NCBI GenBank assembly: GCA_003141245.1 | Contig: PLLE01000018.1 | Span: 23,097 to 82,925, forward strand | DNA from: Chloroflexota bacterium | GTDB lineage: Bacteria > Chloroflexota > Limnocylindria > Limnocylindrales > CSP1-4 | Direction of reading: 5' to 3' | DNA: 59,829 bases | Part shown: in pieces, positions 8,013 through 29,893 of the stretch | Numbering within the stretch: position 1 is the first letter of the stretch | How the letters are laid out: each line of letters opens with the position of its first letter | The notes under the pieces: model-generated | The model's database searches: none | Told to the model about the DNA's origin: nothing | The model's input: the letters and a program-made list of their open reading frames with translations, nothing else | Position numbers and translations under genes: made by a program

Positions 8013-8362
8013 CGGTTGACCTCGAGCGGCCCAGCCGGAACGTCGATCAGGACGCGGCCACCCTCCACGGCCACCGGGTAGACCGCCAGCGGCAGCTCGG
8101 CGGGCGGATCGATGACCTCGCCGTCGATCAGCGAGAAGCGCGACATGTGGAGCGTGCACAGGATGGAGTCGCCGGTCATCGCCCCACGATCCAGCTCGAA
8201 GTACTCGTGCGTGCAGATCCCCTGAGTGGCGTGGAACGTGCCGGCCAGGTTCGTCACCAGCACCAGCTCGTCCCCGACCTCGCACAGCTTCTTCGTGCCC
8301 GGCGGCACTTCGTCGGCGGCGCACAGGTCGATGCGGCGGAGATCAGACTTCGTGGGAGCCAT
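8009..8362 (-). CDS. Rieske-type [2Fe-2S] ferredoxin
   Basis: A soluble 117-residue Rieske ferredoxin. The cluster ligands are CTH at about residues 50-52 and CTLH about 17 residues later (CTHEYFELD, then CTLHMSRFSL), the C-x-H...C-x-x-H pattern of dioxygenase and NirD-type ferredoxins; there is no signal or membrane segment. It is the last gene after sufB and sufD, 14 bases downstream of sufD. Similar small Rieske proteins sit in SUF operons of Gram-positive-like bacteria, where an electron-supply role is presumed. Its end overlaps the convergent gene at 6519 by four bases. Confidence 0.92.
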   Translation of the reverse strand: MAPTKSDLRRIDLCAADEVPPGTKKLCEVGDELVLVTNLAGTFHATQGICTHEYFELDRGAMTGDSILCTLHMSRFSLIDGEVIDPPAELPLAVYPVAVEGGRVLIDVPAGPLEVNR

Positions 8363-8376
8363 GGCTCACCTCGACC

Positions 8377-9797
8377 TCAGGATACTGCGGCGGCCGCCGG
8401 GCGAGCGACGGTGCGGGCGTCCCACTTGGCCTCGAGCAGATCGCGCAGGCGATCCTGCGCGGAAGCCAGCGGAACGCGCGCCACGACCGGTTCCAGGTAG
8501 CCCAATACGATGAACTTGCGCGCTTCGTCCGGATCGAGGCCGCGGCTTTCCAGGTAGAAGAGCTGCGTCTCGTCGACCGGGCCGACGGAGCTGGCGTGGG
8601 CGACGCGGCGGCAGTCGGGCTGGTCGATCTCCAGGCTTGGGATGGCGACCGATCGAGCCTGCTTGGAAAGCAGCATGGCGAACTCGCCCAGGTAGCTGTC
8701 GGTGCCGTGGGCCGTCAGATCGATCGTCGCAAGGCCCTTCATGTAGGCCCGGGAGCGGTCGGACAGCGCACCCTTCGAAAGCAGGTTGCCGGTCGTGTCG
8801 CGACCGATGTGGCGCGTGTAGGAAGTCAGGTCGAAGAGCTGGTCGGCCGAGCCGAAGACGATCTCGGCCTGCTCGACCGACGAACCGTCGCCCTCGAGAG
8901 TGTTGTCGATGCGGCTCCGAATGACCCGGCAGCCGAGCTGCGCGAGGGCCCACCGAACCGTCGCCCCCTGCCCGACGACTGCCGAGCGGTGCTGGAAGGC
9001 GACCTGGTCGATCGCGAAATCCTGCAGTCCGGCGAAGGAGAGCGTCGACCCGGCGCCCAGCTGAACCTCGGTCGTGCCGGTGAAGAAGGACTGGGCATGG
9101 CCGGCGGCGCCGGCGGTCGATGAGGCCACCTGCTCTTCCACGACCGATGCCTCGGCGTCGTCGCCGATCGAGAGAATCGTCCGAGACAGTAGAGCGCCGT
9201 TCGGCGCGCCCATGGCCCAGCGCAGCACGATCGGCCGCTCAAGGCGAACTCCGTTCGGGACGTGCACGAACAGGCCATGCGTCCAGAGTGCCCGCGTCAT
9301 CTGCCCGAGCTTGTCGTTCTCGGGTAGCGTGCAGCCGCCGTCGAGCAGGCGACGCAGCAGCTCCGGGTCGCGTGCGCCCAGATCGGCGAGCGTCTCCAGG
9401 ACCACGCCGGCGTCGCGAGCCTCCGGCGAGAGGACGAGCGCCGCCAGACGATCTTCGGCGAACTCGGCGTACGCGGCCGCTCCCTCGGGCAGCTGCGCCT
9501 TGCCCGCCGCGACCCCGCCACGCGTCCCGGCCGGATACGGTCGCACCGCGGCAAGGTGGGCGTTGCGCAGGTCCACGTACGGCGTGTAGAGCCGGTTCGA
9601 CTCGATCGGGAGAGTCTCGAACCCGTGCAATCCGGCGAGCCTGTCGGCCAGCAGCCAGTCGGGATCCCCCGCGGCTGCGGCGATCTTTCGAACCGTCGCT
9701 TCGTCGACGAAACTCAGGGTCAGGTCCGTCGGCGACTGACGGGCCGGCGCCGTCGGTCGAGTGACCGGCTGAGACGCCGCGGGTCGGGCTGCGGCGG

Positions 9798-17642: not shown

Positions 17643-18404
17643 CTACACGCGCCCGAGCAGATAGCCGAACGCGGCGACACGAAGCCATGCCTGGGCGCTC
17701 ATCTGCGTTTGCTAGAAACAGCGCGACAGCCGTCGCCAGCGACCGAGCTGGGCAAAGGCGTGCTCGACCTTGTAGAGCGGCGCGATCGGCTTGAATCCGC
17801 TCTGGCCCGGTGCGGGAGCCTTGATCTGAACTCGGGCGTGATGCATGCCGGCGGCCTTGGTCAAGCCTCGATAGCCACGATCGGCGAGAACATCGGTGAC
17901 GGTGGCCAGGGCGGGCAGGGCGCTGTGGATCAGGCGGCGACCGGAGGAGACATCGTGCGGCTTGGCCGACTCGACATGAGCGCCGACCGGCAAACCCATG
18001 ATCTCGATGAGCACGGTCCTCTTGGCCCCGATGGTCCGCCAACCTCGACCGCCGGCCTCGTGGAAGGTCGGGCCGGCTCGACCACCTTTGACCGTCTGGG
18101 CGTCGATCATGACCATTGACGGCGTGGGCTTGCGACCGTGCGCGGTTCGGATCTTCCGGGCCAGCCGATCCATGGCAGTCGCCCAAACTCCGCTCTCTCA
18201 CCAGCGCAACCATTGGGCCCAGACCGCGCCCCAGGGCCCAGACCGCTCGGGAAGGTAGCGCCACCGACAGCCGGTCCGACAGAGGAACAGCATCGCATCG
18301 ACCATCTGTCGGCGCGGGATTACCGGCGGGCGACCTCTATCGGTCTCGAAGAGGTCCCGCACCAGGTTCCATTGGTCGTCGTTGAGGCTGATCGCGTATG
18401 CCAT
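17643..18404 (-). pseudogene. IS5-family transposase with two in-frame stop codons
   Basis: The reverse-strand frame from ATG 18404 to TAG 17643 aligns over its whole length with an IS5/IS427-type transposase (254 codons). The N-terminal DUF4096-like part is LNDDQWNLVRDLFE...CRTGCRWRYLPERSGPWG, then come the DDE core parts MIDAQTVKGG (first D), VLADRGYRGL (second D) and APLYKVEHAFAQLGRWRRLSR (E). It is interrupted by TGA at 18198-18200, after WLRW and before ESGVWATAMDRLA, and by TAG at 17712-17714, after RRLSRCF and before QTQMSAQAWLRVA. Both sides continue in the same frame, so these are point nonsense changes, not a programmed frameshift. No terminal inverted repeats were found. Confidence 0.88.
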
Positions 18405-18716
18405 GTGCCCAGGGTCGCCGATGCAAGTGACACGTTCTCTGTCATTAGTCGGTCGGTTCGAGCACAATCTTTCGTATACAGGGCCTCAGACGCCTCCTCC
18501 GCTCCCCGTCGACCCCTCAAGTGCCTGCGGGCGCAACTTCGGGCCGAAGAGCCACCGCCTCGTGACCTATGGCACGTGGACACATGCACGTTAGCGATCT
18601 ATTCATAGAACACGCATGGCTAGTGCCTGGAGGCCCTCAAAGTGCTGAGCCCGTCACGAGTCTCGACGAGGGGTCGCGAGCGGCTCGATCGCGCGTCACA
18701 CGAGGATCTCTGAGCC
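18405..18716. other. Gap between dead transposase and arsR
   Basis: About 310 bases without a supported gene. A short dyad, TGACA-7-TGTCA, lies at 18428-18444. The rest may hold the lost right end of the insertion sequence and the promoter of the arsR-qmo operon, but I could not assign -35/-10 boxes with confidence. No TGCGC-type palindrome like those at the other two ArsR promoters is present here. Confidence 0.35.
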
Positions 18717-19091
18717 ATGCTGCGACCCTCAGACGACATCTACGGCCTGCAGGCCTCGATCCTCAAGACGATCGCGAGCCCGCGGCGCCTGGAGATGATC
18801 CACCTCCTGGGCGAGATGGGCCCCATGGAGGTCCGACGGCTGGCCGAGCACTTCGGCATGCCGCAGCCCGCTATCTCGCAGCATCTGGCCGCGCTGCGCT
18901 CCGCCGGTCTGGTCGAGGCGGTTAGGGCAGGTCGTGAGGTCCGATACCAGCTGGTGGACGCCGAAATCGTCGCCGCCTGCGACCTCATGCGTCAGGTCCT
19001 GGTGCGCCGCATGGCCCGTCTGGGCGACATGGCGGCCTCGTTCTCGAGCCAGTCACCGGCGCCACGCGAGCCGGCGGAGGCAATCCGATGA
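18717..19091 (+). CDS. ArsR-family transcriptional regulator of the sulfur/Qmo operon
   Basis: A 124-residue winged-helix repressor. The HTH is SPRRLEMIHLLGEMGPMEVRRLAEHFGMPQPAISQHLAALRSAGLVEAVRAGREVRYQL (about residues 20-78), with a Cys at about residue 89 in VAACDLMRQVL. It is closely similar in layout to the ArsR regulator at 34389, which starts a second DsrE/TusA operon. ArsR proteins near sulfur-transfer genes (SqrR/BigR type) often sense persulfides through two cysteines; only one conserved Cys is visible here, so the sensing mode is open. It is the first gene of the operon. Confidence 0.92.
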   Translation: MLRPSDDIYGLQASILKTIASPRRLEMIHLLGEMGPMEVRRLAEHFGMPQPAISQHLAALRSAGLVEAVRAGREVRYQLVDAEIVAACDLMRQVLVRRMARLGDMAASFSSQSPAPREPAEAIR

Positions 19092-19164
19092 CCGGGGCGC
19101 GCTCGGCTCAGCTCGAGAAGTGTTCATTCCATCGCAACCCAAGAAGAAAGTGAGTAACGAACCC

Positions 19165-19530
19165 ATGGCTGAGAAGCTCGTGATCATGATCACTCACGGG
19201 CCCGAGGACCCGGAGATGGCGACAATCCCGTTTGTCATGGCCGTCGCCGCAATGGCGTCCGACGTCGAAGCGATCATCGGACTTCAGGCATCGGGCGTGG
19301 AGCTGGCCGTCAAGGGTGCCGCCGACAAGGTCAACGTCGACAGCTTCCCGCCGCTTGCCAAGCTCATGAGCGATTTCAGCGAGCTGGGCGGCAAGCTCCT
19401 GCTGTGCGGCCCGTGCATCAAGTCCCGCCAGATCGACGCCGCAACGCAGCTCGTCGAGAACGCCGAGGTCGTCGCCGCGGCGCGGTTCGTCGCCGAGATC
19501 ACCTCCGCCACTAACGCCCTCGTGTACTAG
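19165..19530 (+). CDS. DsrE/DsrF-like sulfur carrier protein
   Basis: A 121-residue DsrE-fold protein (MAEKLVIMITHGPEDPEMATIPFVMAVAAMASDVEA at the start). It carries a CGPC pair in GKLLLCGPCIKSRQI (about residues 79-85), where DsrE-family proteins hold their sulfur-carrying cysteine. Family knowledge: DsrE and DsrE-like proteins exchange persulfide sulfur with TusA. ATG 19165 is preceded by an in-frame GTG at 19150 with a purine-rich AAGAAGAAA directly upstream, so five more residues are possible. It lies between arsR and tusA, 12 bases before the latter. Confidence 0.88.
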   Translation: MAEKLVIMITHGPEDPEMATIPFVMAVAAMASDVEAIIGLQASGVELAVKGAADKVNVDSFPPLAKLMSDFSELGGKLLLCGPCIKSRQIDAATQLVENAEVVAAARFVAEITSATNALVY

Positions 19531-19542
19531 GAGCACTCCCCC

Positions 19543-19809
19543 ATGCCCGCCGCACTGACCGAGTCCGAGCTCGCCGCTGTATCCGTCGCCAAGGTCGTGG
19601 ACGCGCGCGGAAGCGCCTGCCCAGGCCCTCTGCTCGAAGCCAAGAAGGGCATCGGCGCTGTGTCTGTCGGCGCCGTCCTCGAGATCTGGTCGAGCGACCC
19701 GATCACCAAGACCGACATCGGCGCCTGGGCCGCCAAGGTCGGCCACGCATTCCTCGGCTATGCGCCTGCGGACGGCTACGACCGGGTCTTCGTGCGCCGC
19801 CTGAAGTAA
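19543..19809 (+). CDS. tusA: TusA-family sulfurtransferase
   Basis: An 88-residue TusA/SirA-like sulfur carrier. The active-site signature is DARGSACPGPLLEAKKGI (about residues 21-38), CPGP in place of the commoner CPxP, followed by IEVWSSDP-type beta sequence (LEIWSSDPITKTDIGAWAAKVGHAFLG) and a complete C-terminal strand YDRVFVRRLK. The cysteine carries a persulfide that is passed to partners such as DsrE or Hdr-like complexes. A strong hairpin follows the stop codon before the mvhD-like gene. Confidence 0.93.
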   Translation: MPAALTESELAAVSVAKVVDARGSACPGPLLEAKKGIGAVSVGAVLEIWSSDPITKTDIGAWAAKVGHAFLGYAPADGYDRVFVRRLK

Positions 19810-19818
19810 GTTCCGCCG

Positions 19819-19846
19819 GCGGGCGCCCCTCCTAACGGGCGCCCGC
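19819..19846 (+). terminator. Intercistronic stem-loop after tusA
   Basis: A perfect 10-bp stem, GCGGGCGCCC (19819-19828) and GGGCGCCCGC (19837-19846), with an 8-base loop, lies 10 bases after the tusA stop and 82 bases before mvhD. No T-run follows, so it is not a classical terminator. In the middle of an operon it more likely stabilises the 5' arsR-dsrE-tusA message or lowers expression of the distal genes. Confidence 0.6.
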
Positions 19847-19927
19847 GGACCCCTCAGCCCTCGATCCATTCAAGGGAGACATCGATCTCCCGCCTAGCTC
19901 TGTCCCGGAGCAGGAGTGGCAGCGACC

Positions 19928-20365
19928 ATGGCTAGCAACCCGGCAGACACGCCGCCGACCAGGATGCTGGTCATCGCGACGCTTCTGTGCTCGTACCCCG
20001 GGATCGACGCGACCGGTCAGGCCCACATGGAATACCCACCCAACACGTTCGTCATTCCGACCCCGGATCCCGTCATGTTCCCGGAGTCTTTCTACCTGTA
20101 CTGCTTCGAGAAGGGCATCGACGGCATCCTGATCGCCTCGTGTGGCACTGACAGCCCCTACGAGGGCTCGTACGCGCAGCTTGCCGCCCGCATCAACACG
20201 GTCTACGCGCGGATGAAGGAGCGCGGCATCAGCATCCGCCGGCTCAAGCTCACCGCCATCTGCAGCGTCTGCACCAAGGCGTTCCTCAAAGAGGTGGGCG
20301 AGATGGAGGCGGTCCTCGCCGAGCTCGGCCCCGTCCGTGGCGAGGTCGCGGCCGTGGGCGCCTGA
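19928..20365 (+). CDS. MvhD-like [2Fe-2S] protein (hydrogenase iron-sulfur subunit family)
   Basis: A 145-residue MvhD/FlpD-domain protein. In methanogens MvhD links hydrogenase to heterodisulfide reductase; in QmoB of sulfate reducers the same domain is the C-terminal part. Conserved cysteines appear in LLCSYPG (about 20), YCFEKGIDGILIASCGTDSPYEGS (about 58-74) and AICSVCTKAFL (about 114-117). It starts at ATG 19928 with GGAG about 14 bases upstream; a GTG at 19916 is possible. It overlaps the qmoA-like gene by one base, so it is very likely a subunit of the same complex, here kept as a separate chain. Confidence 0.9.
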   Translation: MASNPADTPPTRMLVIATLLCSYPGIDATGQAHMEYPPNTFVIPTPDPVMFPESFYLYCFEKGIDGILIASCGTDSPYEGSYAQLAARINTVYARMKERGISIRRLKLTAICSVCTKAFLKEVGEMEAVLAELGPVRGEVAAVGA

Positions 20366-21747
20366 TGGAGCAACGCATGGAGGCCGACGTCCTCGTTGTC
20401 GGGTCAGGCATCGCCGGACTGCAGGCCGCCCTCGACCTGGCCGACCGCGGCTACAGCGTCCTCGTCGTGGAACAAGAGGCGAGCACCGGCGGCAAGATGA
20501 TCGCCCTGTCCAAGGTCTTTCCGACCATGGACTGCTCGAGCTGCATCACCACGCCGCGCATGTCGGCGGTGGCCCATCACGACAACATCACCACCTGGAC
20601 ATACACGGACGTCGACAGCATCGCACCCGAGGGCGGAGCGTTCAGTGCGCACCTGACGCGCAAGGTGCGCTACGTGGACGAGGGCCTGTGCATAGGCTGC
20701 CGGCTGTGCGAGTACGCCTGCCCGGTCGAGGTTCCCCATGAATTCGAGGGAAACATGGGGGCCCGCCGCGCCGCATACATTCCGTTCGGCACGGCCATTC
20801 CCCAGAAGGCGCTTATAGACATCGACGCCTGCATCTACTGCGGCAAGTGCGAGAAGGCCTGCCCGACCGACGCCATCGTCTGGGATCAGGAGCCCCAGGC
20901 CGTCACCGTCGCGGCCCGAGCCGTCGTCCTGGCGACGGGCTTTGAGACCACACCTCTCGACGCCAAGAAGGAGTACCGGGGCGGCCAGGCTGCGAATGTC
21001 ATCAGCGGCCTGGACATGGAGCGGCTCCTTGCCCCCAACGGCCCATACGGCCGCGTCCTGCGCCCCTCCGACGGCAAGATTCCCGACAGCGTCGCCTACG
21101 TCCAGTGCGCTGGCTCACGCGACGAGACGCTCGGTGTCCCCTACTGCTCGCGGGTCTGCTGCATGTACGCGATCAAGCAGTCGATGCTGCTCTCCGGCTC
21201 GCTGCCACTGGCCGATATCACCGTCTACTACATGGACATCCGAGCCTTCGGCAAGGGCTACGAGCAGTTCTACCAGACCGCGCGCTCGATGGGCATCAAC
21301 TTCGTGAAGGCGAAGGTGGCCCGCATCGACGAGGAGGCGAACGGCGACCTCCGTATCCGCGTCGAGATGATCGAGGAGGAGGGCAAGCTGGCCGAGCCGA
21401 TCCACGACCTCGTCGTCCTCTCCGTGGGCCTGCGGCCCGGCGACGATCCCCGACGCTTCGTGGGAGTCGATCTGGACCAGTACGGCTTCGTCGCCTCGCC
21501 CGAGCCCAAGCTCGACGCGACACTTACGAACCTGCCGGGCGTGGTGGCCGCTGGCACGGCCCTCGGACCAAAGGACATCGTCGATTCGATCGCGGAGGCG
21601 AGTGCGGCCGCGACCCGGGTGGCCGTGTATCTGGGACCGCCAGCCATGGCGCCGCATCCGCCCGACGACGGGCTCGGGGTCGAGGTGCGCGACATAAATG
21701 CAGGCGATGCGGTGGCGGTCGCTCGACCGGAGGTGCAGCGTGCCTGA
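20365..21747 (+). CDS. qmoA: QmoA/HdrA-like FAD and iron-sulfur protein
   Basis: A 460-residue flavoprotein of the HdrA family. The FAD-binding motif VLVVGSGIAGLQAALDLADRG is at about residues 9-29, followed by VFPTMDCSSCITTPRMS (51-67). Two [4Fe-4S] motifs follow, CIGCRLCEYACP (109-120) and CIYCGKCEKACP (156-167), and then YCSRVCCMYAIKQS, the HdrA block that binds a further cluster. Together with the next HdrA-like chain and the HdrC/HdrE fusion protein the order matches QmoABC, the quinone-interacting membrane oxidoreductase of sulfur-metabolising bacteria. Electrons would pass between a soluble sulfur partner and quinone; the direction cannot be read from sequence. Confidence 0.9.
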   Translation: MEQRMEADVLVVGSGIAGLQAALDLADRGYSVLVVEQEASTGGKMIALSKVFPTMDCSSCITTPRMSAVAHHDNITTWTYTDVDSIAPEGGAFSAHLTRKVRYVDEGLCIGCRLCEYACPVEVPHEFEGNMGARRAAYIPFGTAIPQKALIDIDACIYCGKCEKACPTDAIVWDQEPQAVTVAARAVVLATGFETTPLDAKKEYRGGQAANVISGLDMERLLAPNGPYGRVLRPSDGKIPDSVAYVQCAGSRDETLGVPYCSRVCCMYAIKQSMLLSGSLPLADITVYYMDIRAFGKGYEQFYQTARSMGINFVKAKVARIDEEANGDLRIRVEMIEEEGKLAEPIHDLVVLSVGLRPGDDPRRFVGVDLDQYGFVASPEPKLDATLTNLPGVVAAGTALGPKDIVDSIAEASAAATRVAVYLGPPAMAPHPPDDGLGVEVRDINAGDAVAVARPEVQRA

Positions 21748-23863
21748 GCGCAAGGCAAAGCCGCCGAAGAAACCCGCCCCGGTCGCCGGCCAAGTGCCGC
21801 AGGCTGCGCCTGCCGTGCCCGCGAACGGCAAGTCTGCTCCCAAGGCCGAGAAGGTCGGCGTATACGTCTGCCACTGCGGAGGCAACATCTCCGACGTCGT
21901 CGACGTAGACCGGGTCGCCACCGAGGCGGCCCAGCTCGAGGGAGTCGCCGTCGCTCGGCACATCATGTTTATGTGCTCGGACGAGGGTCAGAAGGCGATC
22001 GTCGACGACATCGAGGCGCTCGGCCTGGACCGCGTCGTCGTCGCTGCCTGCACGCCCACGCTCCACGAGACAACCTTCCGGCGGGCCGTCCTGCGGGGTG
22101 GACTGAACCAGTACCTCTTCCTGCCGGCGAACATCCGCGAGCAAGCAAGCTGGGCTCACCCACACAGCCCCAAGGCCGCGACCGAGAAGGCGATTGCGCT
22201 CGTTCGCGCCGCCGTCGCCAAGGCGCGCCTGCTCGAGCCGCTCGAGATGGTCAGGGTGGCGGCCGTCCATCGCGCCCTGGTCATCGGCGGCGGAGTGGCG
22301 GGTCTGCGGGCCGCGCTCGATCTCGCTCGCCAGGGCATCGGCGTCACGCTCATCGAGAAGTCGCCGTTCCTGGGCGGTCGGGCCGTCCAGCTCCACACGG
22401 TCTTCCCGACCGAGGATCTCGCCCGGCCTCTGATCCATCGGCTCATCCGCCAGGTTGTGGCGCAGTCCAACCTGAAGATCCTGACGAACACCGAGGCCGT
22501 CGAACTGGCCGGCTATGTGGGCGACTTCAGGGCGACGCTGCGGACGACGCCACGCGGCGTGAACAGCGAGCTTTCAGATCCGACCGCGGCGATCGCCGCC
22601 TGCCCGGTCGAGGTGGCGAACGAGTTCGATGACGGTCTGAGCCGGCGCCGCGCCATCTACCAGCCATACACGGGGTCAGAGCCCGACATGCCCGCCATCG
22701 ACTGGGGGGCATGCACTCGCTGCGGCGCCTGCGTCGAGGCGGTCGGCGGGCGAGGCATCGAGCTGACGGGCGAGGCTGTCGAGACTCAAATCGAGGCGGG
22801 GGCCATCGTCGTGGCCACTGGGTTCGACCACTACGAGCCGCGTGACGGGGAATACGGCTATGGTCGCTCGCCGCGAATCCTGACCCTGCCGCAGGTTGAC
22901 CGAATGCTCGATCCAGAGGGCCCCTCGCACGGGCGCCTCGAGATCGACGGCCGCGTCCCGCGGGCCGTCGCCTTCATCCACTGCGTCGGGAGCCGCCAGA
23001 TCGAGGGCGTAGACGAGCCCGGCCCGGATGGCAAGCTGCACGCGTACTGCTCGCGGGTCTGCTGCACGGCCACCCTGCAGGCCGCCAACGAGGTCCGCAG
23101 GCGATACCCGAAGACCGAGATCTACGACCTGTACCGCGACATCCGGACGTACCAGAAGGACCAGGAGCCGTACTACGTCGATGCCTCGAAGCGCGGCGTC
23201 GTCTTCATGCGCTTCGCCAACGACGCGCGGCCGACCGTCGAGGTTGCCGACGCAGCGGACTATCCGCTCAAGGTCACCGTCGCGGACACGCTTACATTCG
23301 GCACCGCGATTGAGGTCCCTGTCGACCTCGTGGTCCTGAGCGTCGGCGTAATGCCGCGCGACATCGCAGGCCTAATCGACATGACAAAAGCGCCGATCGG
23401 CAGTGACGGCTTCCTGCTCGAGGTTCATCCCAAGTTGAGGCCCGTCGAGAGCGCCATCCCCGGCCTGCTCCTGGCCGGCACTGCGCAGGCACCGATGGAC
23501 ATCAGCGAGAGCACGTCGGCAGCCTCGGCTGCCGCGGCCAAGGTGACCACGCTGCTTGCCAAGAACTACGTGGAGATGGAGCCGTTCGTGGCAAAGGTCG
23601 ATCCGTCCCTGTGCGACGGCTGCGGCCTCTGTTTGGACGCCTGCCACTACGCGGGAGCCATCGCCCTGCAGGACGTCGAGGTGGAGGAGGGCGTGATCGA
23701 AAAGCGGGCATACGTCAACCCGGTGGCCTGCAAGGGCTGTGGGGCCTGCGTGCCATCCTGTCCGGTCGCGGCCCTGGATGTGGCGGGGTGGGAGATCGAG
23801 CAGTACCGGGCCATGATCGACGCGATCACGGCCCGACCTCTGGAGGCAGGAGCCCGCTCATGA
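21740..23863 (+). CDS. qmoB: QmoB/HdrA-like flavoprotein with C-terminal ferredoxin domain
   Basis: A 707-residue HdrA-type protein starting at GTG 21740, with GGAGG ten bases upstream; it overlaps the end of qmoA by eight bases. After a Pro/Ala/Lys-rich leader, VGVYVCHCGGNISDVVD (about 39-55) and VVVAACTPTLHE form the HdrA N-terminal domain. RALVIGGGVAGLRAALDLARQG (about 178-199) binds FAD, and YCSRVCCTATLQAAN is the cluster block. The last 100 residues hold two [4Fe-4S] motifs, CDGCGLCLDACHYAGAI and CKGCGACVPSCPVAAL. Desulfovibrio-type QmoB ends in an MvhD domain; here that domain is the separate gene at 19928. Confidence 0.9.
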   Translation: MPERKAKPPKKPAPVAGQVPQAAPAVPANGKSAPKAEKVGVYVCHCGGNISDVVDVDRVATEAAQLEGVAVARHIMFMCSDEGQKAIVDDIEALGLDRVVVAACTPTLHETTFRRAVLRGGLNQYLFLPANIREQASWAHPHSPKAATEKAIALVRAAVAKARLLEPLEMVRVAAVHRALVIGGGVAGLRAALDLARQGIGVTLIEKSPFLGGRAVQLHTVFPTEDLARPLIHRLIRQVVAQSNLKILTNTEAVELAGYVGDFRATLRTTPRGVNSELSDPTAAIAACPVEVANEFDDGLSRRRAIYQPYTGSEPDMPAIDWGACTRCGACVEAVGGRGIELTGEAVETQIEAGAIVVATGFDHYEPRDGEYGYGRSPRILTLPQVDRMLDPEGPSHGRLEIDGRVPRAVAFIHCVGSRQIEGVDEPGPDGKLHAYCSRVCCTATLQAANEVRRRYPKTEIYDLYRDIRTYQKDQEPYYVDASKRGVVFMRFANDARPTVEVADAADYPLKVTVADTLTFGTAIEVPVDLVVLSVGVMPRDIAGLIDMTKAPIGSDGFLLEVHPKLRPVESAIPGLLLAGTAQAPMDISESTSAASAAAAKVTTLLAKNYVEMEPFVAKVDPSLCDGCGLCLDACHYAGAIALQDVEVEEGVIEKRAYVNPVACKGCGACVPSCPVAALDVAGWEIEQYRAMIDAITARPLEAGARS

Positions 23864-24156
23864 CCTCCGCCGACAAGCCCAGAAGCAAGATGCTCGAGCT
23901 CAAGGAGCGCCGCGGTCCCGTGTCGGCGGAGCTGCTGGACTCGGTTCGCCAGAACAACGCGGCCAAGACCGCCATCAAGCGAGCGCTGGCCGGCGGGCCC
24001 CGCACGGTACCTGAAATAGCCGAGGCGGCCGGTCTTTCGACCCGGACCATCCTCTGGACGATAACCGCCATGCGCAAGTACGGGGCGGTCCTCGAGGACT
24101 CCACGGACGGCTCATACGTCCGCTATGCACTCGCCGCGAAGGGCCCCAGGGTATGA
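23860..24156 (+). CDS. Small winged-helix protein inside the qmo operon
   Basis: A 98-residue protein with a predicted winged helix: AIKRALAGGPRTVPEIAEAAGLSTRTILWTITAMRKYGAVLEDSTDGSYVRYAL (about residues 38-91). It overlaps qmoB by four bases at its start and qmoC by four bases at its end, so it is made with the complex. It could be a regulator fed by the complex, or a structural subunit that reuses the wHTH fold. I know no named family for it. The position between qmoB and qmoC is unusual. Confidence 0.8.
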   Translation: MTSADKPRSKMLELKERRGPVSAELLDSVRQNNAAKTAIKRALAGGPRTVPEIAEAAGLSTRTILWTITAMRKYGAVLEDSTDGSYVRYALAAKGPRV

Positions 24157-25331
24157 GCGTCACCGTAGACCCAACCCTGCTCCGGACGCTGCAGCGGTAT
24201 GGCGCGTTCGACGTCGCCGCATGCTTCAACTGCGGCAACTGCACCGCCGTGTGTCCTCTGACCGGGGCCGACGCTACGTTCCCGCGCCGCATCATCCGCT
24301 ACGCCCAGGTGGGCATGAAGGACGAGCTGCTCTCCTCCAAGGAGCTGTGGACCTGCTACTACTGCGGCGAGTGCTCCGAGACGTGCCCGCGTCAGGCGGA
24401 GCCGGGTGAGTTCATGGCAGCCGCGCGGCGCTATGCGATCGCCAGCTACGACCGCACCCGTCTTGCCAGGACGATGTACCTGCAGCCGTTTCTCGGCGCG
24501 CTCATCGCCGTAATGCTGGCTGCCGTCTTCGCCCTGTTCATGTACGCCGGCCATGGCCCGCAGGACAGCACATCGCTCGCTCTCTTCCAGTTCATCCCGT
24601 CGGAGCTGATTCACAACGTCGGTCTGGCGGTGATGATCCTCGTCTTCCTGGCCGGGCTCGCCGGAGTCGCGACTATGGCGGGACGGATCGGACGGTCCGA
24701 GGGCGTCGGCTGGCGAACTGTCTTCGGTGGGCGCACAGCCTTGCGCCGATCCGGCCGCGCGCTCTGGATCGCGCTGGGCATCGAATCGCTGGGCCAGCGC
24801 CGCTACCGGGTCGACTGCGAGACAGTCCAGCAGCCGGTGGCCTGGTATCGCCGCCGCTGGCTCCTCCACGCCATGACGATGTGGGGCTTCCTGGGCCTGC
24901 TCGGCGCCACGATCGCCGATTACGGCCTCGAACTCGTCGGGATCAAGGCGACCGGCACGCCGGTGCCGATCTGGTATCCGGTCCGACTCCTGGGCACAGT
25001 CGCGGGCGCGATGCTCATCTACGGCACAACGATGCTCATGGTCGATCGGCTGCGCAAAGCCAACCGGGCGGTCCGCCATTCCATCGCCGCCGACTGGACG
25101 CTCCTGGCGCTACTCTGGATCGCTGGCGTCACCGGCTTCGTGCTCGAGCTGGCGCTCTATCTGCCGCAGGCCCCCGCATGGGGCTACTGGATCTTCCTCT
25201 TCCACGTCGCGGTCGCGATGGAGCTGGTTCTTCTGGCGCCCTTCATGAAGTTCGCCCATGCCATCTACCGGCCCGTGGCACTCTTCTTCTACGCGCTAAC
25301 ACCGGGTGGAGGCGGCCAGCGGAGCGATTGA
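24153..25331 (+). CDS. qmoC: QmoC-like HdrC/HdrE fusion, membrane quinone-reactive subunit
   Basis: A 392-residue fusion. Residues 20-100 are HdrC-like with two [4Fe-4S] motifs, CFNCGNCTAVCP (24-35) and CYYCGECSETCP (68-79). The rest is a cytochrome b-type membrane domain of about six helices related to HdrE/NarI, with candidate haem histidines in SELIHNVGLAV, RRWLLHAMTMWGFLGLL, FLFHVAVAMELVLL and MKFAHAIYRP. This is exactly the QmoC architecture. It anchors the soluble QmoAB-MvhD part to the membrane and exchanges electrons with menaquinone. Last gene of the overlapped block; the next gene starts 117 bases later. Confidence 0.9.
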   Translation: MSVTVDPTLLRTLQRYGAFDVAACFNCGNCTAVCPLTGADATFPRRIIRYAQVGMKDELLSSKELWTCYYCGECSETCPRQAEPGEFMAAARRYAIASYDRTRLARTMYLQPFLGALIAVMLAAVFALFMYAGHGPQDSTSLALFQFIPSELIHNVGLAVMILVFLAGLAGVATMAGRIGRSEGVGWRTVFGGRTALRRSGRALWIALGIESLGQRRYRVDCETVQQPVAWYRRRWLLHAMTMWGFLGLLGATIADYGLELVGIKATGTPVPIWYPVRLLGTVAGAMLIYGTTMLMVDRLRKANRAVRHSIAADWTLLALLWIAGVTGFVLELALYLPQAPAWGYWIFLFHVAVAMELVLLAPFMKFAHAIYRPVALFFYALTPGGGGQRSD

Positions 25332-25448
25332 CCGGGTCGGACCCCGGCCGCAGCTCAGCCGGGCCTCGCGGCTGTCTTATCCTCATACACAATCATCAAT
25401 GACCGGCCCGGGCTGCGTGCGAGCGGCGCCATGACCACAGGGAGACCC

Positions 25449-25856
25449 ATGCGACTGCTGATCCCGACCACCGACGCCAACGGCGCCAGCGCCCAGCTTT
25501 CCGGCCATTTCGGACGTGCCCCCTACTACGCCGTTGCCGACACCGAGACGGGCGCCGTAGCAACCGTCGCCAACCCATCGGTCTCTCACGGCCACGGCGA
25601 GTGCGTGCCCGCATCCGACGTCTTCGGAGAGGGCGGCTTCGACGCCGTCGTTTGTCAGGGGATCGGTCGGGGCGCCGTTGCCCGGCTGGCCCAGGCGGGA
25701 GTTCCCGTGTTCGTTCATGAGGGCCCGGATGTCGCCTCGGCAGTGGCGGCTTTCCGCAGACGCTCCCTGCGTGTGGTGGGCACAGACGACAGCTGCTCAG
25801 GGTCGGGCTCGTGCGGCGAGCATGAGCACGGCCAGTCCGGTCGCGAGGGGAACTAG
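25449..25856 (+). CDS. NifX/NifB-like (dinitrogenase FeMo-cofactor biosynthesis fold) protein
   Basis: A 135-residue protein of the NifX/NafY/VnfX-like fold (MRLLIPTTDANGASAQLSGHFGRAPYYAVADTETGAV, then DAVVCQGIGRGAVARLAQAGVPVF), with a C-terminal Cys/His tail (SCSGSGSCGEHEHG) that could bind metal. Members outside nitrogen fixation often accompany Fe-S or sulfur-relay genes and are presumed to carry metal-sulfur groups. ATG 25449 has GGGAGA six bases upstream. It is followed four bases later by the membrane rhodanese gene, so the two are co-transcribed. A paralogue lies at 32308. Confidence 0.85.
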   Translation: MRLLIPTTDANGASAQLSGHFGRAPYYAVADTETGAVATVANPSVSHGHGECVPASDVFGEGGFDAVVCQGIGRGAVARLAQAGVPVFVHEGPDVASAVAAFRRRSLRVVGTDDSCSGSGSCGEHEHGQSGREGN

Positions 25857-25859
25857 GCG

Positions 25860-26423
25860 ATGAGCAAGGGACGCAAGAAGGGGACCGACTCGTACTCGTC
25901 CGGCGCAAAGCGCGGCCGTTCCGCGGCGGGCTCCCCGGCTGCCTCCCACAGCCGGAGCCGGCTCTATCTTGCGATCGTCGCGGGCATCGCCACGTTGCTC
26001 GTCGTGTTCGCCGTCGGGTTCGTCGTGCTCGGCGGATCCAGATCCGGCTCATCGGCTAGCCTGGCCTCGGGCGAGACTATCGTCCCGGGAAACGGCGGCC
26101 ACTGGACCAACGTCACCCCCGATCGGCTGGCCCAGATGCTGACGCACAAGGACTTCACGCTGGTCAACGTGAAGACGCCGTACATCGGTGAGATCCAGGG
26201 CACCGATCTGTACATCCCCTACGACCAGATCTCCGCACGCGCCTCCCAACTACCGGCGGACAAGGGGGCGAAGATCCTCGTCTACTGCCTCACCGGCCAC
26301 AGCAGCGCCGTGGCGGCCCAAACTCTCCTGGACCTCGGCTACACGAACGTCTGGAACCTGGACGGCGGGATGCAGGTCTGGCAGGCGTCCGGTCGAGCGC
26401 TGGTGAACCTCAACCGTCAGTAG
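25860..26423 (+). CDS. Membrane-anchored rhodanese-domain protein
   Basis: A 187-residue protein with one N-terminal membrane helix (about residues 35-58, LYLAIVAGIATLLVVFAVGFVVLGG) and an outward-facing rhodanese domain. The active-site cysteine lies in ILVYCLTGHSSAVAAQTLLDLG (about residue 142), with NVWNLDGGMQVWQASG near the end. It lacks a lipobox. Such proteins hold or transfer persulfide sulfur outside the membrane; next to the qmo operon, it could hand extracytoplasmic sulfane sulfur inward (inference). Its last seven bases overlap the convergent methyltransferase gene. Confidence 0.9.
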   Translation: MSKGRKKGTDSYSSGAKRGRSAAGSPAASHSRSRLYLAIVAGIATLLVVFAVGFVVLGGSRSGSSASLASGETIVPGNGGHWTNVTPDRLAQMLTHKDFTLVNVKTPYIGEIQGTDLYIPYDQISARASQLPADKGAKILVYCLTGHSSAVAAQTLLDLGYTNVWNLDGGMQVWQASGRALVNLNRQ

Positions 26424-26900: not shown

Positions 26901-27416
26901 CTACCCCGCCGAGCCGCTCGGTTGCGGCTTCCCCAAGGCGTCCGGATCGGCATGCGGGCCGGTGACCAGGACCTCGCCCTCGATCGGATCCGCGGTGTCC
27001 GGACGCACGATCCTGTAGCGGTGGTGGATTTCGACCGTCCCGGCCGAGAGCATCGCTGCCACCGAGCAGTACTTGGTGGCGGACAGTTCGATGGCTCGCC
27101 GCACGGCGGCCTCGTCGACGGCCGGCCCCTCGATAAGATGGACCACGTCGGCCCGCGTATAGACGGCCGGTTGGCCCTCCCGCTGGTCCGCGGATACGGA
27201 GACCTCGTAGCGCGTAACGGTCTGGCGCTTCTTCTGGAGGATCGAGATCACGTCCATTCCGGTGCAGCCAACTTGGCCGACGAGAAGCATCTCGACCGGG
27301 CGAGGACCGGCGTTGCCACCGGCGTCGTCGAGGACGATCTCGTGGCCCGAGCCAGTTCGGGCGGTGAAGCGGAGACCGGTCCCCTCGTAGCGGGCAGTGG
27401 AGGTCTTGACGGTCAC
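26901..27416 (-). CDS. OsmC-family protein
   Basis: A 171-residue OsmC-fold protein. The first active cysteine is in LLVGQVGCTGMDVISILQKKRQ (about residue 51) and the second in ELSATKYCSVAAMLSAG (about 117). The core block RYEVSVSADQREGQPAVYTRADVVHLIEG links it to the YhfA-like branch rather than to Ohr. It overlaps the methyltransferase upstream by four bases (27413-27416). Thiol chemistry fits the surrounding sulfur genes, but the substrate is unknown. Confidence 0.9.
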   Translation of the reverse strand: MTVKTSTARYEGTGLRFTARTGSGHEIVLDDAGGNAGPRPVEMLLVGQVGCTGMDVISILQKKRQTVTRYEVSVSADQREGQPAVYTRADVVHLIEGPAVDEAAVRRAIELSATKYCSVAAMLSAGTVEIHHRYRIVRPDTADPIEGEVLVTGPHADPDALGKPQPSGSAG

Positions 27417-28060
27417 TGAGGCGACTCCTTGAGAAGTGTTGCATCGGGAGCTGCGCCGCGGCGCATGACAAGAAGGGCATCGATGAGCCCGCGGCCCGGG
27501 GGCGGAACTTGCCGGACGACTTCAGCTCGCTCGATCACGAGTTCTGGATCGGTGGACCGCAACTCGCGACCAATTTCCTCGGCGGTGAACAGGCGCGCGG
27601 GGTCCGGCGGTCCGGACACGCCCTCGGTGGCGTTGAGGCGGTCGTGGCCGACGATGAGCATCCGTCCGCCCGGAGCGACCGCTGCGGCGGCGCGGGCGTA
27701 GACAGGCTGCCGCTCTTCGGGCGGCAGGTGCAGATACACGATTACCACCAGGTCGAACGATCGCGCCGGCGGCATCCATTCGAACAGGTTGCGCTCCAGC
27801 CAGTCCACCTTCAGACCCGCTGCCTCGGCCTTCGCCCGGCCATTGGCCAGGCCGACCGGGGACCAGTCCACGGCGGTGGTGCGCCAGCCCCGACTCGCCA
27901 GCCAGACGGCGTTGGTTCCGCTGCCGGCCGCAAGCTCCAGGGCGCGGCAAGGAATCATATCGGAGGCCGCCGCTACCAGGGTCGGATTGGGGCCGCGCCC
28001 CTCGAAGTCACCGGCTCCGTGGCGCTCATCCCAACCCAACCGGCGCTGATCGGCAACCAC
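27413..28060 (-). CDS. SAM-dependent methyltransferase (TehB/thiopurine-type)
   Basis: A 215-residue class I methyltransferase. Motif I is ALELAAGSGTNAVWLASRGW (about residues 41-60), followed by the acidic AVDWSPVGL and the later FDLVVIVYLHLPPEERQPVY and GGRMLIVGHD. TehB-like members methylate chalcogen compounds such as tellurite or sulfide in some bacteria, which would fit this sulfur region, but the sequence does not prove it. It is four bases downstream of the rhodanese gene and overlaps OsmC. Confidence 0.88.
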   Translation of the reverse strand: MVADQRRLGWDERHGAGDFEGRGPNPTLVAAASDMIPCRALELAAGSGTNAVWLASRGWRTTAVDWSPVGLANGRAKAEAAGLKVDWLERNLFEWMPPARSFDLVVIVYLHLPPEERQPVYARAAAAVAPGGRMLIVGHDRLNATEGVSGPPDPARLFTAEEIGRELRSTDPELVIERAEVVRQVPPPGRGLIDALLVMRRGAAPDATLLKESPQ

Positions 28061-28063
28061 TGT

Positions 28064-28411
28064 CTAGCCCCTCTCCATTGGACGGTTGGTGCGAGCCCAA
28101 GCACTCGTGCCACCCCGCACGGAGACAGCGCGCTCGAAGCCCCGGTTCAGCAGGAAGTCCGTCGCGGCCTGGCTGCGGCTGCCGCTCTCGCAGATCACGG
28201 CGTAGGGTTTGTCTTGCGGCAGTTCGCCGATTCGCTGAGGCAGCTGTCCGAGCGGAACGCTCACAGCTCCGGGTACGCGACCCCGGCGGTACTCCCAATC
28301 CTCACGGACATCAATGAGGCGGACGCTGCCGCCTCGGATCAGCTCGTCGAGGTCATCGACGCCTACCTCGGGTGTGGTGTGGTGAGAGAAGAGATGCACG
28401 GGCTGCTCCAT
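28064..28411 (-). CDS. Rhodanese-like sulfurtransferase
   Basis: A 115-residue single-domain cytosolic rhodanese. The domain starts EVGVDDLDELIRGGSVRLIDVREDWEYRRGRVPGAVSVPLGQLP, and the active-site loop is VICESGSRSQAATDFL (Cys about residue 74). The six-residue loop ESGSRS matches the thiosulfate/persulfide class. First gene of the reverse unit rhodanese, methyltransferase, OsmC, ICMT. It carries sulfane sulfur, probably between small carriers such as TusA. Confidence 0.93.
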   Translation of the reverse strand: MEQPVHLFSHHTTPEVGVDDLDELIRGGSVRLIDVREDWEYRRGRVPGAVSVPLGQLPQRIGELPQDKPYAVICESGSRSQAATDFLLNRGFERAVSVRGGTSAWARTNRPMERG

Positions 28412-28540
28412 TGGGACGCGAGGATGATCAGGCGGTCGCGGGCGACCTGCCCCACAGAAGGGCGGGCAGGTCGGCGCCTTCGACTGTCAGGTGCCCATCG
28501 GATTCGAAGGTGCAGGCGGCGGTATTGGTCATGGATCGAG

Positions 28541-28936
28541 TCACCCCGCATTCCCCGCGACTGGCTCGAGCGCAGCGGCTGGCTCGAGCGCAGCGGCTGG
28601 CTTGGGAACGCTAGCCCCGGTCACGCGGCTCGCCAGCCTGCGGCCGACAATGCGGTGGATCACGTCGCAGGCCTCGACGAGCTCCGGCTCGGCCAGGCTG
28701 TAGAGGATCGTTGTGCCAGCCCGGCGCGTGTCGACAAGGCCGGCCGAACGGAGCACGGCAAGGTGCTGACTCGCGTTCGCAAGGTTGCAGCCCAGCTCCT
28801 CGGCGAGATCGCCGACCGAGTGCTCGCCCTCGCGCAGCACGTCCAAGAGCATCAGTCTCTTGGGGTCGGTCAGCACCCGGCACACTTCCGCGTGTAGCCG
28901 GTATCTCTCCGGATCTCGATAGCGCTTATCGTTCAT
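28541..28936 (-). CDS. ArsR-family transcriptional regulator, divergent from tauE
   Basis: A 131-residue winged-helix repressor starting at ATG 28936 (MNDKRYRDPERYRLHAEVCRVLTDPKRLMLLDVL). The HTH is HSVGDLAEELGCNLANASQHLAVLRSAGLVDTRRAGTTILYSL. Three cysteines (CRVL near residue 19, GCNLAN near 51, EACDVIHR near 92) could form a persulfide or metal sensing pair. The C-terminus has the in-frame repeat AAALEPAAALEP from a duplicated CTCGAGCGCAGCGGCTGG. A perfect palindrome at 28997-29012 in the divergent promoter is the likely operator, so it probably controls itself and tauE. Confidence 0.9.
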   Translation of the reverse strand: MNDKRYRDPERYRLHAEVCRVLTDPKRLMLLDVLREGEHSVGDLAEELGCNLANASQHLAVLRSAGLVDTRRAGTTILYSLAEPELVEACDVIHRIVGRRLASRVTGASVPKPAAALEPAAALEPVAGNAG

Positions 28937-28996
28937 CGATGCCTCTTGCCTGCCCCGGCGGTCCAGCCGGGCATGGGCTACACTAACAGAAGTTGC

Positions 28997-29012
28997 ATAC
29001 TTGCGCAAGTAT
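28997..29012. promoter_or_regulatory. Perfect 16-bp palindrome, likely ArsR operator
   Basis: ATACTTGCGCAAGTAT is an exact 8+8 palindrome located 61 bases before the arsR start and 39 bases before the tauE start, in the middle of a divergent promoter region. Its TTGCGCAA core resembles the TGCGCA core of the palindrome at 34779. The size and position are typical for ArsR dimers. Confidence 0.75.
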
Positions 29013-29050
29013 CCGAGTATGAGGCGGACCGCCCGGATGATGAGAGTCAG

Positions 29051-29893
29051 ATGACCCCCGAAGCGGATCTGGGGATCTTCGTTGTGAGCTTCGTCGCCGG
29101 GCTCATCGGCGCCCTCGCCGGCGTTGGCGGCGGCATCCTCGTCATCCCGGCCCTGACCTTCGGCTTCGGCGTAGACATCCGGCTGGCCGTGGGAGCGAGC
29201 ATCGTGTCGGTCATCGCGACCAGCTCTGGAGCCGCAGCCGCCTACGTCCGCGACCGTATGACCGACATGCGGGTGGGCATGTTCCTCGAGCTGGCGACGA
29301 CCACAGGGGCGGTCTGCGGCGCGCTCCTGGCGGCCGTTGTCGCGCCGGCGTTCCTGTATGTGCTGCTTGGTCTGGTTCTGCTCACATCCGCGGGCATGCA
29401 GGTGGCGCGCATGGGGGAGGAGACGCCGCCGACAGACTCTCCGTCCGCGATCGCACTTCGCCTGCGTTTGGCCTCTTCCTACCCCGACCGAAAGCTCGGC
29501 CGCGAGGTCCCCTACTCCGCCAGGCGCGTGCCGCTCGGCTTCGTGCTCATGTGGATCGCGGGCGTGGTGTCGGGCCTGCTCGGGATCGGGTCGGGAGTGC
29601 TCAAGGTGCTGGCCATGGACGGGGCAATGCGGCTGCCGATGAAAGTCAGCTCGGCGACGAGCAACTTCATGATCGGCGTGACCGCAGCCGCCTCGGCGGG
29701 AATATACCTGAGCCGCGGCGACGTGGACCCGCAGATCGCGGCCCCGGTGGCCCTGGGAGTCCTGGCCGGGGCTCTCGTGGGGGCTCGGCTGCTCCAGCAC
29801 ATATCCAACCGGGCTGTCCGGCTGGTCTTCTTGCCGGTCCTCGTGGTCGTAGGCATTGAGACGATTGGCCGCGGTCTGGGGTTTGGGCTATGA
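29051..29893 (+). CDS. TauE/SafE-family membrane exporter/permease
   Basis: A 280-residue membrane protein with about eight helices in two related halves. The family hallmarks are FVVSFVAGLIGALAGVGGGILVIPAL in the first half and MWIAGVVSGLLGIGSGVLKVLAM in the second. TauE/SafE members move sulfite, sulfoacetate or other sulfur-containing anions. It overlaps the DUF1634 gene by four bases, the common pairing in this family, and is divergent from an ArsR regulator. An exporter of sulfite or thiosulfate made by the neighbouring sulfur enzymes is plausible (inference). Confidence 0.92.
   Translation: MTPEADLGIFVVSFVAGLIGALAGVGGGILVIPALTFGFGVDIRLAVGASIVSVIATSSGAAAAYVRDRMTDMRVGMFLELATTTGAVCGALLAAVVAPAFLYVLLGLVLLTSAGMQVARMGEETPPTDSPSAIALRLRLASSYPDRKLGREVPYSARRVPLGFVLMWIAGVVSGLLGIGSGVLKVLAMDGAMRLPMKVSSATSNFMIGVTAAASAGIYLSRGDVDPQIAAPVALGVLAGALVGARLLQHISNRAVRLVFLPVLVVVGIETIGRGLGFGL

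Follow-up and report, generated by a model that had tools for sequence, protein, structure and literature searches.

We examined a 59,829-nucleotide stretch of a Chloroflexota genome (Limnocylindrales, CSP1-4; positions 23,097 to 82,925 of contig PLLE01000018.1, assembly GCA_003141245.1), referred to here as the window, which carries ten clustered genes encoding TusA- and DsrE-type sulfur carriers together with an MvhD-like subunit, two HdrA-type flavoproteins (QmoA and QmoB) and a membrane subunit resembling QmoC. Comparison across genomes indicates that this cassette, a sulfur-linked HdrA-family quinone complex with an altered electron port, is real and widespread. As to its function, our leading interpretation, tentative and a little short of an even chance, is that a membrane-bound HdrA-family complex links the menaquinone pool to the sulfane sulfur that TusA/DsrE carry; this proposal is drawn from gene content rather than biochemistry, and mostly from metagenome-assembled genomes (MAGs).

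Related loci were fetched with the QmoC protein alone, so that TusA was not part of the query, and the best 80 of 164 relatives from named genomes were compared. The titles of these 80 loci name Chloroflexota, Acidobacteriota, Bacteroidota, Planctomycetota, Actinomycetota, Myxococcota/Deltaproteobacteria, Desulfobacteraceae, Armatimonadota, Methylomirabilota, Fibrobacterota and Asgard archaea, although most are MAGs whose taxon labels may be wrong. In 56 loci the sequence extends more than 6.5 kb upstream of qmoC ("long loci"). All of these have tusA, mvhD and two different genes of hdrA type ahead of qmoC, and the order of this core is identical in 55 of them. Since QmoC was the only bait, assembly of this gene set by chance is excluded. 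The CPGP motif is kept in 65/65 cassette TusA proteins compared, and 47 of the long loci have a match to DsrE (PF02635-type) or DsrE2 (PF13686-type) no more than 3 kb from the cassette. The initial annotation of this DNA had named adjacency of tusA-dsrE to qmoABC-like genes as a check on its proposal, and the connection with TusA is kept from phylum to phylum.

A small winged-helix (wHTH) gene accompanies the core in 65 of the 77 loci with more than 500 bases upstream of qmoC, not counting a match in L078 that falls inside qmoB. Its AlphaFold2 model has a predicted local distance difference test (pLDDT) score of 88, and the nearest folds are SmtB/ArsR; the idea of a DsrD-like activator was rejected, DsrD not being among the matches listed (25 Pfam families; the best 60 of 63 PDB rows). 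Within the lineage of the window, strong QmoC matches (E <1e-100) were found in 16/20 genomes of the same genus, in 2/16 from other genera of the family and in 0/24 more distant ones. In an even draw of the phylum that included the window's own genome, 22 of 400 genomes had a match at E <=1e-30, as judged on QmoC alone.

The altered port appears to lie in MvhD. According to the accessible text of PMC12350162, MvhD is a connector whose [2Fe-2S] cluster is near the bifurcating flavin adenine dinucleotide. The window protein has the MvhD fold, its AlphaFold2 model (pLDDT 92) matching MvhD 5odc_D with a template-modelling (TM) score of 0.82 and a root-mean-square deviation of 1.3. The motif [IV]C[ST]VC is present in the MvhD of 66/66 TusA-type loci and of five out of five further Asgard TusA loci, and in none of four MvhDs from Asgard loci that have a [NiFe]-hydrogenase and no TusA, which retain the C..C, CSG and CHY cysteines. 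Across 41 aligned MvhD rows, Cys112 and Cys115 of this Cys-x-Val-Cys (CxVC) motif are the only invariant cysteines. In the model, they sit in the loop that joins strand 106-110 to helix 116-133; in the solved MvhDs listed, this place reads ISASEG. The cysteines that we take to be ligands of the [2Fe-2S] cluster, in part from their conservation, are kept to varying degrees. When the five cysteine columns of the hydrogenase-linked MvhD of locus L186 serve as reference, 67 cassette MvhDs, from 66 loci plus the window, carry a cysteine in 0, 41, 14, 42 and 57 cases, respectively; the first column is thus lost throughout, and no protein retains four or five. The 12 of the 67 that keep one old cysteine or none speak for CxVC acting as a dithiol.

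In our tree, the cassette flavoproteins have their closest relatives in the Heimdallarchaeota locus L186, which reads hdrA-hdrA-mvhD-mvhG-mvhA-qmoC followed by hypA. This locus shares hdrA-mvhD-mvhA-qmoC with L238 and L239; the first hdrA and mvhG are found in L186 and L239, L238 beginning inside the locus. A search of 148 genomes of the same phylum, of which the 11 best after G076 were read, yielded 11 loci: two of hydrogenase type (L238, L239), one rearranged (L241), five of TusA type (L244-L248) and three cut off upstream (L240, L242, L243). No match to cassette TusA, DsrE or wHTH was found in L186, L238, L239 or L241. Judged from these sequences, it looks as if hydrogenase and sulfur carrier had been swapped at a single electron port while the cysteines changed to match, and TusA likely contacts the altered MvhD rather than QmoA or QmoB. 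Two further features of the Asgard loci were noted. L240 and L242 carry a cassette-type wHTH gene, but their QmoC falls outside the cassette clade, next to that of L241, and their upstream parts are cut off; in L244, a second hdrA-hdrA pair directly follows the TusA cassette (5948-8793).

The flavoproteins descend from the HdrA side rather than from the canonical Qmo complex of sulfate reducers, according to a tree of 73 of 115 trimmed sequences. This tree was made with a quick method, midpoint rooting and the Shimodaira-Hasegawa-like approximate likelihood ratio test as its only support; it holds cassettes from 20 loci plus the window and 15 other HdrA rows, with HdrA fragments, further cassette copies, Chlorobium Qmo and sHdrA left out and the QmoB of L055 dropped at trimming. 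All 16 canonical QmoA and QmoB rows lie on one side of a branch with support 100, and the cassette flavoproteins lie on the HdrA side. The cassette A flavoproteins form one clade (support 98), with which an HdrA of L186 branches (support 97); the B flavoproteins and one HdrA of the same hydrogenase-linked locus share a fork that the tree does not resolve (support 100 at its base). Other features also separate the two groups. The MvhD domain is fused to the C-terminus of QmoB in three canonical proteins aligned, and is encoded by a separate gene in the window. Regions around aprA were fetched for 10 of the 11 cassette genomes that have this gene, and in all ten a QmoA or QmoB homologue lies within 3.4 kb of aprA, on contigs other than that of the cassette (contig ends cut the regions of L152, with QmoA only, and L155, with a fragment only). 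Nine QmoA proteins found beside aprA are 31 to 36% identical to window QmoA. The initial annotation was therefore correct in describing a quinone-linked Hdr-family complex with TusA and DsrE, while its naming as Qmo-like does not extend to descent.

The membrane subunit follows a looser history. The window protein does not reach the QmoC equivalog, yet eight cysteines and His239 are present in 81/81 cassette QmoC rows, and His351 and His369 in 99%. In the QmoC tree, 26 of the 28 cassette rows group together (support 92) and canonical QmoC is split, a placement suggesting that the subunit has been exchanged at times. Separately, the canonical QmoC proteins found beside aprA in L150 and L153 fall outside the other canonical QmoC, and QmoC thus seems to move between complexes. 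In the C-terminal ferredoxin of QmoB, many cassettes lack the second cysteine of one cluster, leaving the spacing C-x5-C-x3-C; it is retained in 32% of the 37 compared. Loss of this cysteine was considered as a defining mark of the cassette and dropped, since the window retains it.

The genome that contains the window (2.54 Mb, 47 contigs, 92% complete) was searched for sulfur and respiratory markers together with 62 others, giving 13 genomes of the window's genus or family and 50 from elsewhere, chosen by a cassette-type QmoC match and not by the whole cassette. For aprA we relied on TIGR02061, as PF12139 matched no genome, controls included, and was set aside. None of the 13 genus/family genomes has aprA, dsrA or sat above cut-off; sub-threshold aprA matches of 23-30 bits occur in all 13, and for dsrA and sat there are none. 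Fourteen control genomes also lack aprA and dsrA above cut-off. The searches do work, as the matches in cassette genomes show: of the 63, 11 have aprA, 13 dsrA and 17 sat, and the dsrA of G085 and G086 reaches 343 bits against a cut-off of 393. The absence of AprAB, Sat and DsrAB claimed initially is hence borne out for aprA, dsrA and sat (aprB was outside the search), and the combination said to make this an ordinary Qmo locus, aprA or dsrA in the genome with branching inside the canonical Qmo clade, was not found. In the 11 genomes of the window's genus there is no match to COX1 or to Mo-bisPGD oxidoreductases (PF00384), and cytochrome bd and complex-I-type antiporter subunits are found in all 11. 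COX1 is present in the family relatives G021 and G026, and in 34 of the 63 genomes overall.

In some cassettes QmoA is considerably longer (frames of about 900 to 1000 amino acids). This long type occurs in 12 of the 56 long loci (nine Bacteroidota, L035, L037 and L038), and also in L034 and in the same-genus/family loci L189 to L194. A Pfam run on L056 and L193 shows that the added length, about 460 amino acids, consists of Fer4_20 and Pyr_redox_2 domains inserted in the ferredoxin loop, an arrangement of the nicotinamide adenine dinucleotide (phosphate), NAD(P)H, type that we take to be GltD/NfnB-like. Such a domain was rejected as a general feature of the cassette, because it is limited to the long type and the window has a plain ferredoxin loop. 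Four same-genus loci (L189, L190, L193, L194) resemble the window in ArsR (73-79% identity), DsrE (72-77%, partial in one), TusA (65-67%) and rhodanese (62-78%), whereas their MvhD is only 35-38% identical and their QmoA is of the long type. Since the flanks match the window and the MvhD-QmoA part does not, it seems that the core was swapped at the same site. In the accessible text describing HdrA, a polyferredoxin binds the inserted ferredoxin domain (PMC12350162). The position of the NAD(P)H domain at this same site suggests that the QmoA loop is a low-potential port.

These observations can be combined into a possible mechanism. Our starting point is that, in hydrogenase complexes, the [2Fe-2S] cluster of MvhD would take up electrons and pass them to the bifurcating flavin of HdrA. 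In the cassette, where MvhD has an incomplete cysteine set and the new invariant Cys-x-Val-Cys dithiol, TusA would dock at this dithiol. Working oxidatively, the MvhD disulfide would react with sulfide to give a persulfide that is transferred to TusA, and the electrons would enter the HdrA flavins; working reductively, TusA persulfide would be released as H2S, leaving an MvhD disulfide to be reduced by the flavins. A high-potential branch would lead from the flavins through QmoC to menaquinone, a route suggested by the conserved cluster cysteines and histidines of QmoC, and a low-potential branch would lead through the ferredoxin loop of QmoA to ferredoxin or, in the long variant, to NAD(P)H. 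The potentials are about −270 mV for sulfur/sulfide, −75 mV for menaquinone and −320 mV for NAD(P). With these values, splitting the electron pair of sulfide would run downhill, and the reverse would require high persulfide and low sulfide. The fullest version of this scheme, which on sequence evidence we consider rather unlikely, is a sulfur-fed bifurcating respiratory complex, in which sulfide/persulfide borne by TusA replaces H2 at MvhD and electron pairs are split between menaquinone and NAD(P)H or ferredoxin. If true, anaerobes and microaerobes of many phyla, Asgard archaea included, would draw on sulfide both for membrane energy and for a strong reductant, with no need of Dsr, Apr, Sox or sHdr.

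Several points weigh against coupling of carrier-bound sulfur to menaquinone. Nearly all genomes with the cassette are MAGs, and the complex is known from sequence alone. TusA might work for a different pathway although it is encoded in this operon. Neither DsrE nor DsrE2 was found within 3 kb in 9 of the 56 long loci, although one of them, L039, encodes a weak PF13686 protein, and wHTH is missing from 12 of the 77 loci (11 Bacteroidota and L049). QmoC is exchangeable, two of its 28 cassette rows lying outside the cassette clade, and many cassettes, though not that of the window, lack one of the cluster ligands of QmoB. The old MvhD cysteines are partly kept: 36 of the 67 proteins have three, 19, including that of the window, have two, eight have one and four have none, and those with two or three may hold a cluster in which CxVC supplies new ligands. 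Finally, the terminal oxidases of the window genus do not point to one direction: cytochrome bd is present throughout, with no COX1 or Mo-bisPGD match.

This last point leads to the strongest rival, a possible but less probable one, in which the same anatomy works only reductively, as a cytoplasmic persulfide reductase that uses menaquinol and/or NAD(P)H to reduce TusA-bound sulfane to H2S. Dithiol/persulfide chemistry is reversible, the window genus has neither COX1 nor Mo-bisPGD matches, and COX1 is absent from 29/63 genomes; moreover, dsrC and a DsrK-like gene lie beside the cassette in six Bacteroidota loci, with no dsrA in the four genomes searched. Menaquinol, however, is a weak reductant for persulfide, and cytochrome bd in 11/11 genomes offers the window genus an oxidative sink, and the family relatives G021 and G026 have COX1. 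The membrane rhodanese and ArsR suit oxidation of sulfide or of persulfide equally well.

We regard as improbable a second rival, that the cassette is a general type II Qmo complex in which MvhD holds a cluster with CxVC ligands and meets another soluble partner, with TusA and DsrE present only as a source of sulfur for cofactors or the regulator. Many housekeeping functions are known for TusA, more than half of the MvhDs keep three of the old five cysteines, and type II complexes are reported with or without Apr and Dsr, with an open role, in the accessible text of PMC10504309. Against this stand the adjacency of tusA in every long locus, the CxVC motif, which tracks TusA and not hydrogenase, and the 12 MvhDs with at most one old cysteine. 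Much less probable still is sulfur oxidation of the sHdr kind, with sulfite produced from carrier-bound sulfane. It would account for TusA and DsrE standing together with Hdr-type subunits, but Pfam finds no HdrB with CCG domains among the ten window proteins and no lipoate-binding protein either, the rest of the genome not having been searched for the latter; and 6tjr, which we take to be sHdrA, scores 122 bits compared with 318-388 for methanogen HdrA. On contig C21 of the window genome, a separate stretch (L187, 4006-10984) contains genes for a Ni-dependent hydrogenase together with an HdrA, an HdrB-type protein (CCG) and an HdrC-like protein. An ordinary Qmo that serves adenosine 5'-phosphosulfate (APS) reductase from elsewhere in the genome, suggested by the QmoABC-like subunit architecture, was rejected as having next to no likelihood, given the HdrA-side placement outside the canonical clade, the lack of AprA and Sat above cut-off in the 13 genus/family genomes, and the separate Qmo-type genes in all ten aprA regions, on other contigs than the cassette.

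Coupling of TusA/DsrE-borne sulfur to menaquinone can also be set against the systems already described. Canonical QmoABC shares with the cassette two HdrA-type flavoproteins and an HdrC/HdrE fusion leading to quinone, but it belongs to a separate clade, has MvhD fused to QmoB in the examples aligned, and is found next to aprA. The MvhAGD-HdrABC complex and the Asgard MvhAGD-HdrAA-QmoC loci share the HdrA core and the MvhD fold; the cassette differs from them in having TusA/DsrE in place of hydrogenase, an incomplete MvhD cysteine set with CxVC, and no HdrB in the cluster. The sHdr system of Hyphomicrobium and Acidithiobacillus likewise joins Hdr-type proteins to TusA/DsrE carriers, while the cassette has its own membrane quinone subunit, without HdrB or lipoate-binding protein in the cluster. 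The use of lipoate-binding proteins with the Hdr-like proteins of sHdr is described in the accessible text of PMC6067878. The YTD cluster and type II DsrEFH, as far as the accessible parts of PMC12998232 and PMC13293266 describe them, resemble the cassette in bringing tusA together with dsrE, and type II DsrEFH adjoins dsrMK or qmoAB in archaea (PMC13293266); no YedE is encoded among the ten window proteins, however, and the cassette core is an oxidoreductase.

The nearest precedent is the division of Qmo into two types by Neukirchen, Pereira and Sousa (2023, PMC10504309), where the accessible text places type II closer to HdrA, occurring with or without Apr and Dsr, with a role needing experiments. 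Cassette QmoA and QmoB are likewise nearer to HdrA than to canonical Qmo, and Apr and Dsr are present in some of the genomes and absent from others. By sequence, then, the cassette is probably type II Qmo or a close relative of it, in a comparison that did not extend to the V. moutnovskia and A. degensii sequences. In what is accessible of that paper, TusA appears twice only, in a figure legend about DsrEFH and in a reference, and MvhD not in the main text. No such cassette appears in the accessible parts of PMC13047784, PMC12998232, PMC6397845, PMC12142623, PMC10839748, PMC12054007 and PMC5736913, nor was a description found in the literature searched, which was accessible in part, excluded supplements, and left subscription journals and preprints mostly outside its coverage. 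Of the "third type of Hdr-based sulfur pathway" proposed initially, the distinctness of the pathway stands as a fair hypothesis, given the TusA/DsrE link and the absence of aprA, dsrA and sat; by descent, the complex lies outside Qmo. The cassette provides a candidate partner and a testable chemistry for HdrA-type "Qmo" complexes whose role had been stated to be open. It also predicts metabolism of sulfide or sulfur in Limnocylindrales, Acidobacteriota, Bacteroidota and Asgard archaea, in genomes that often lack the usual sulfur markers, so that marker-based surveys could miss it.

The ten genes of the window are listed in Table 1. Their positions, common strand and mostly tight spacing, as initially described, were confirmed with open reading frames, Pfam and NCBIfam. 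Spacing ranges from −8 to +12 bases except for arsR-dsrE (73), tusA-mvhD (118) and qmoC-nifX (99), and all the junctions of mvhD-qmoA-qmoB-wHTH-qmoC overlap by 1 to 8 bases.

Table 1. Genes of the cassette and its flanks in the window (positions of the window; scores in bits)
Gene product	Position	Strand	Supporting match
ArsR/SmtB-family regulator, one Cys	18717..19091	+	HTH_5 56 bits; NF033788 81.6 bits, above cut-off
DsrE-family sulfurtransferase, CGPC motif	19165..19530	+	PF02635 53.7 bits
TusA sulfur carrier, CPGP in ACPGPLLEAKK	19543..19809	+	PF01206 62.3 bits
MvhD/FlpD-like subunit, Cys112-x-Val-Cys115	19928..20365	+	PF02662 61.4 bits
QmoA-like HdrA flavoprotein with inserted two-cluster ferredoxin loop	20365..21747	+	NF040770 463 bits, below cut-off 1100
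QmoB-like HdrA flavoprotein: N-terminal HdrA domain, C-terminal ferredoxin, no fused MvhD	21740..23863	+	NF040770 626 bits, below cut-off 1100
Small winged-helix protein (wHTH) between qmoB and qmoC	23860..24156	+	Pfam matches weak, below cut-off
QmoC-like HdrC-HdrE fusion: two 4-Cys motifs and membrane domain	24153..25331	+	NF038018 196.5 bits, below cut-off 300
NifX/Nitro_FeMo-Co-like protein	25431..25856	+	PF02579 68.2 bits
Rhodanese with N-terminal membrane helix	25860..26423	+	PF00581 43 bits; hydropathy 32-64

ArsR probably senses the sulfur state, and the rhodanese domain is probably on the outside. We regard the rhodanese and the NifX-like protein as accessories of the lineage, present in near relatives; of the 80 loci, only L031-L033 have the NifX-like gene beside qmoC, and it is outside the general core. 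Downstream, the window has a wider sulfur neighbourhood (26901-29893) with OsmC, a rhodanese and a second ArsR on the minus strand and a TauE/SafE exporter on the plus strand. Directly upstream of arsR (17712-18467) are two frames that match IS4/IS5-type transposase (DDE_Tnp_1, DUF4096).

Additional genes accompany the cassette elsewhere. In the same genus, a second arsR-dsrE-like-tusA-dsrE2 cluster lies near the cassette in L189 (2238-3868; its DsrE2 assigned by Pfam), L190 (16463-18135) and L193 (2339-4034). The six Bacteroidota loci mentioned above (L056, L059, L066, L071, L073, L096) carry, in their first 4 kb and before the cassette, dsrC, a DsrK-like CCG protein and a cysteine-desulfurase-like class-V aminotransferase, as assigned from protein clusters and, for L056, by Pfam; a DsrC cycle without DsrAB is possible in these organisms, to judge from gene content. 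Next to the cassette in some Acidobacteriota there is a FadL-type porin or a fusion of pyridine nucleotide-disulfide oxidoreductase and rhodanese (L063, 3429-4859; L086, 11999-13834; Pfam on both).

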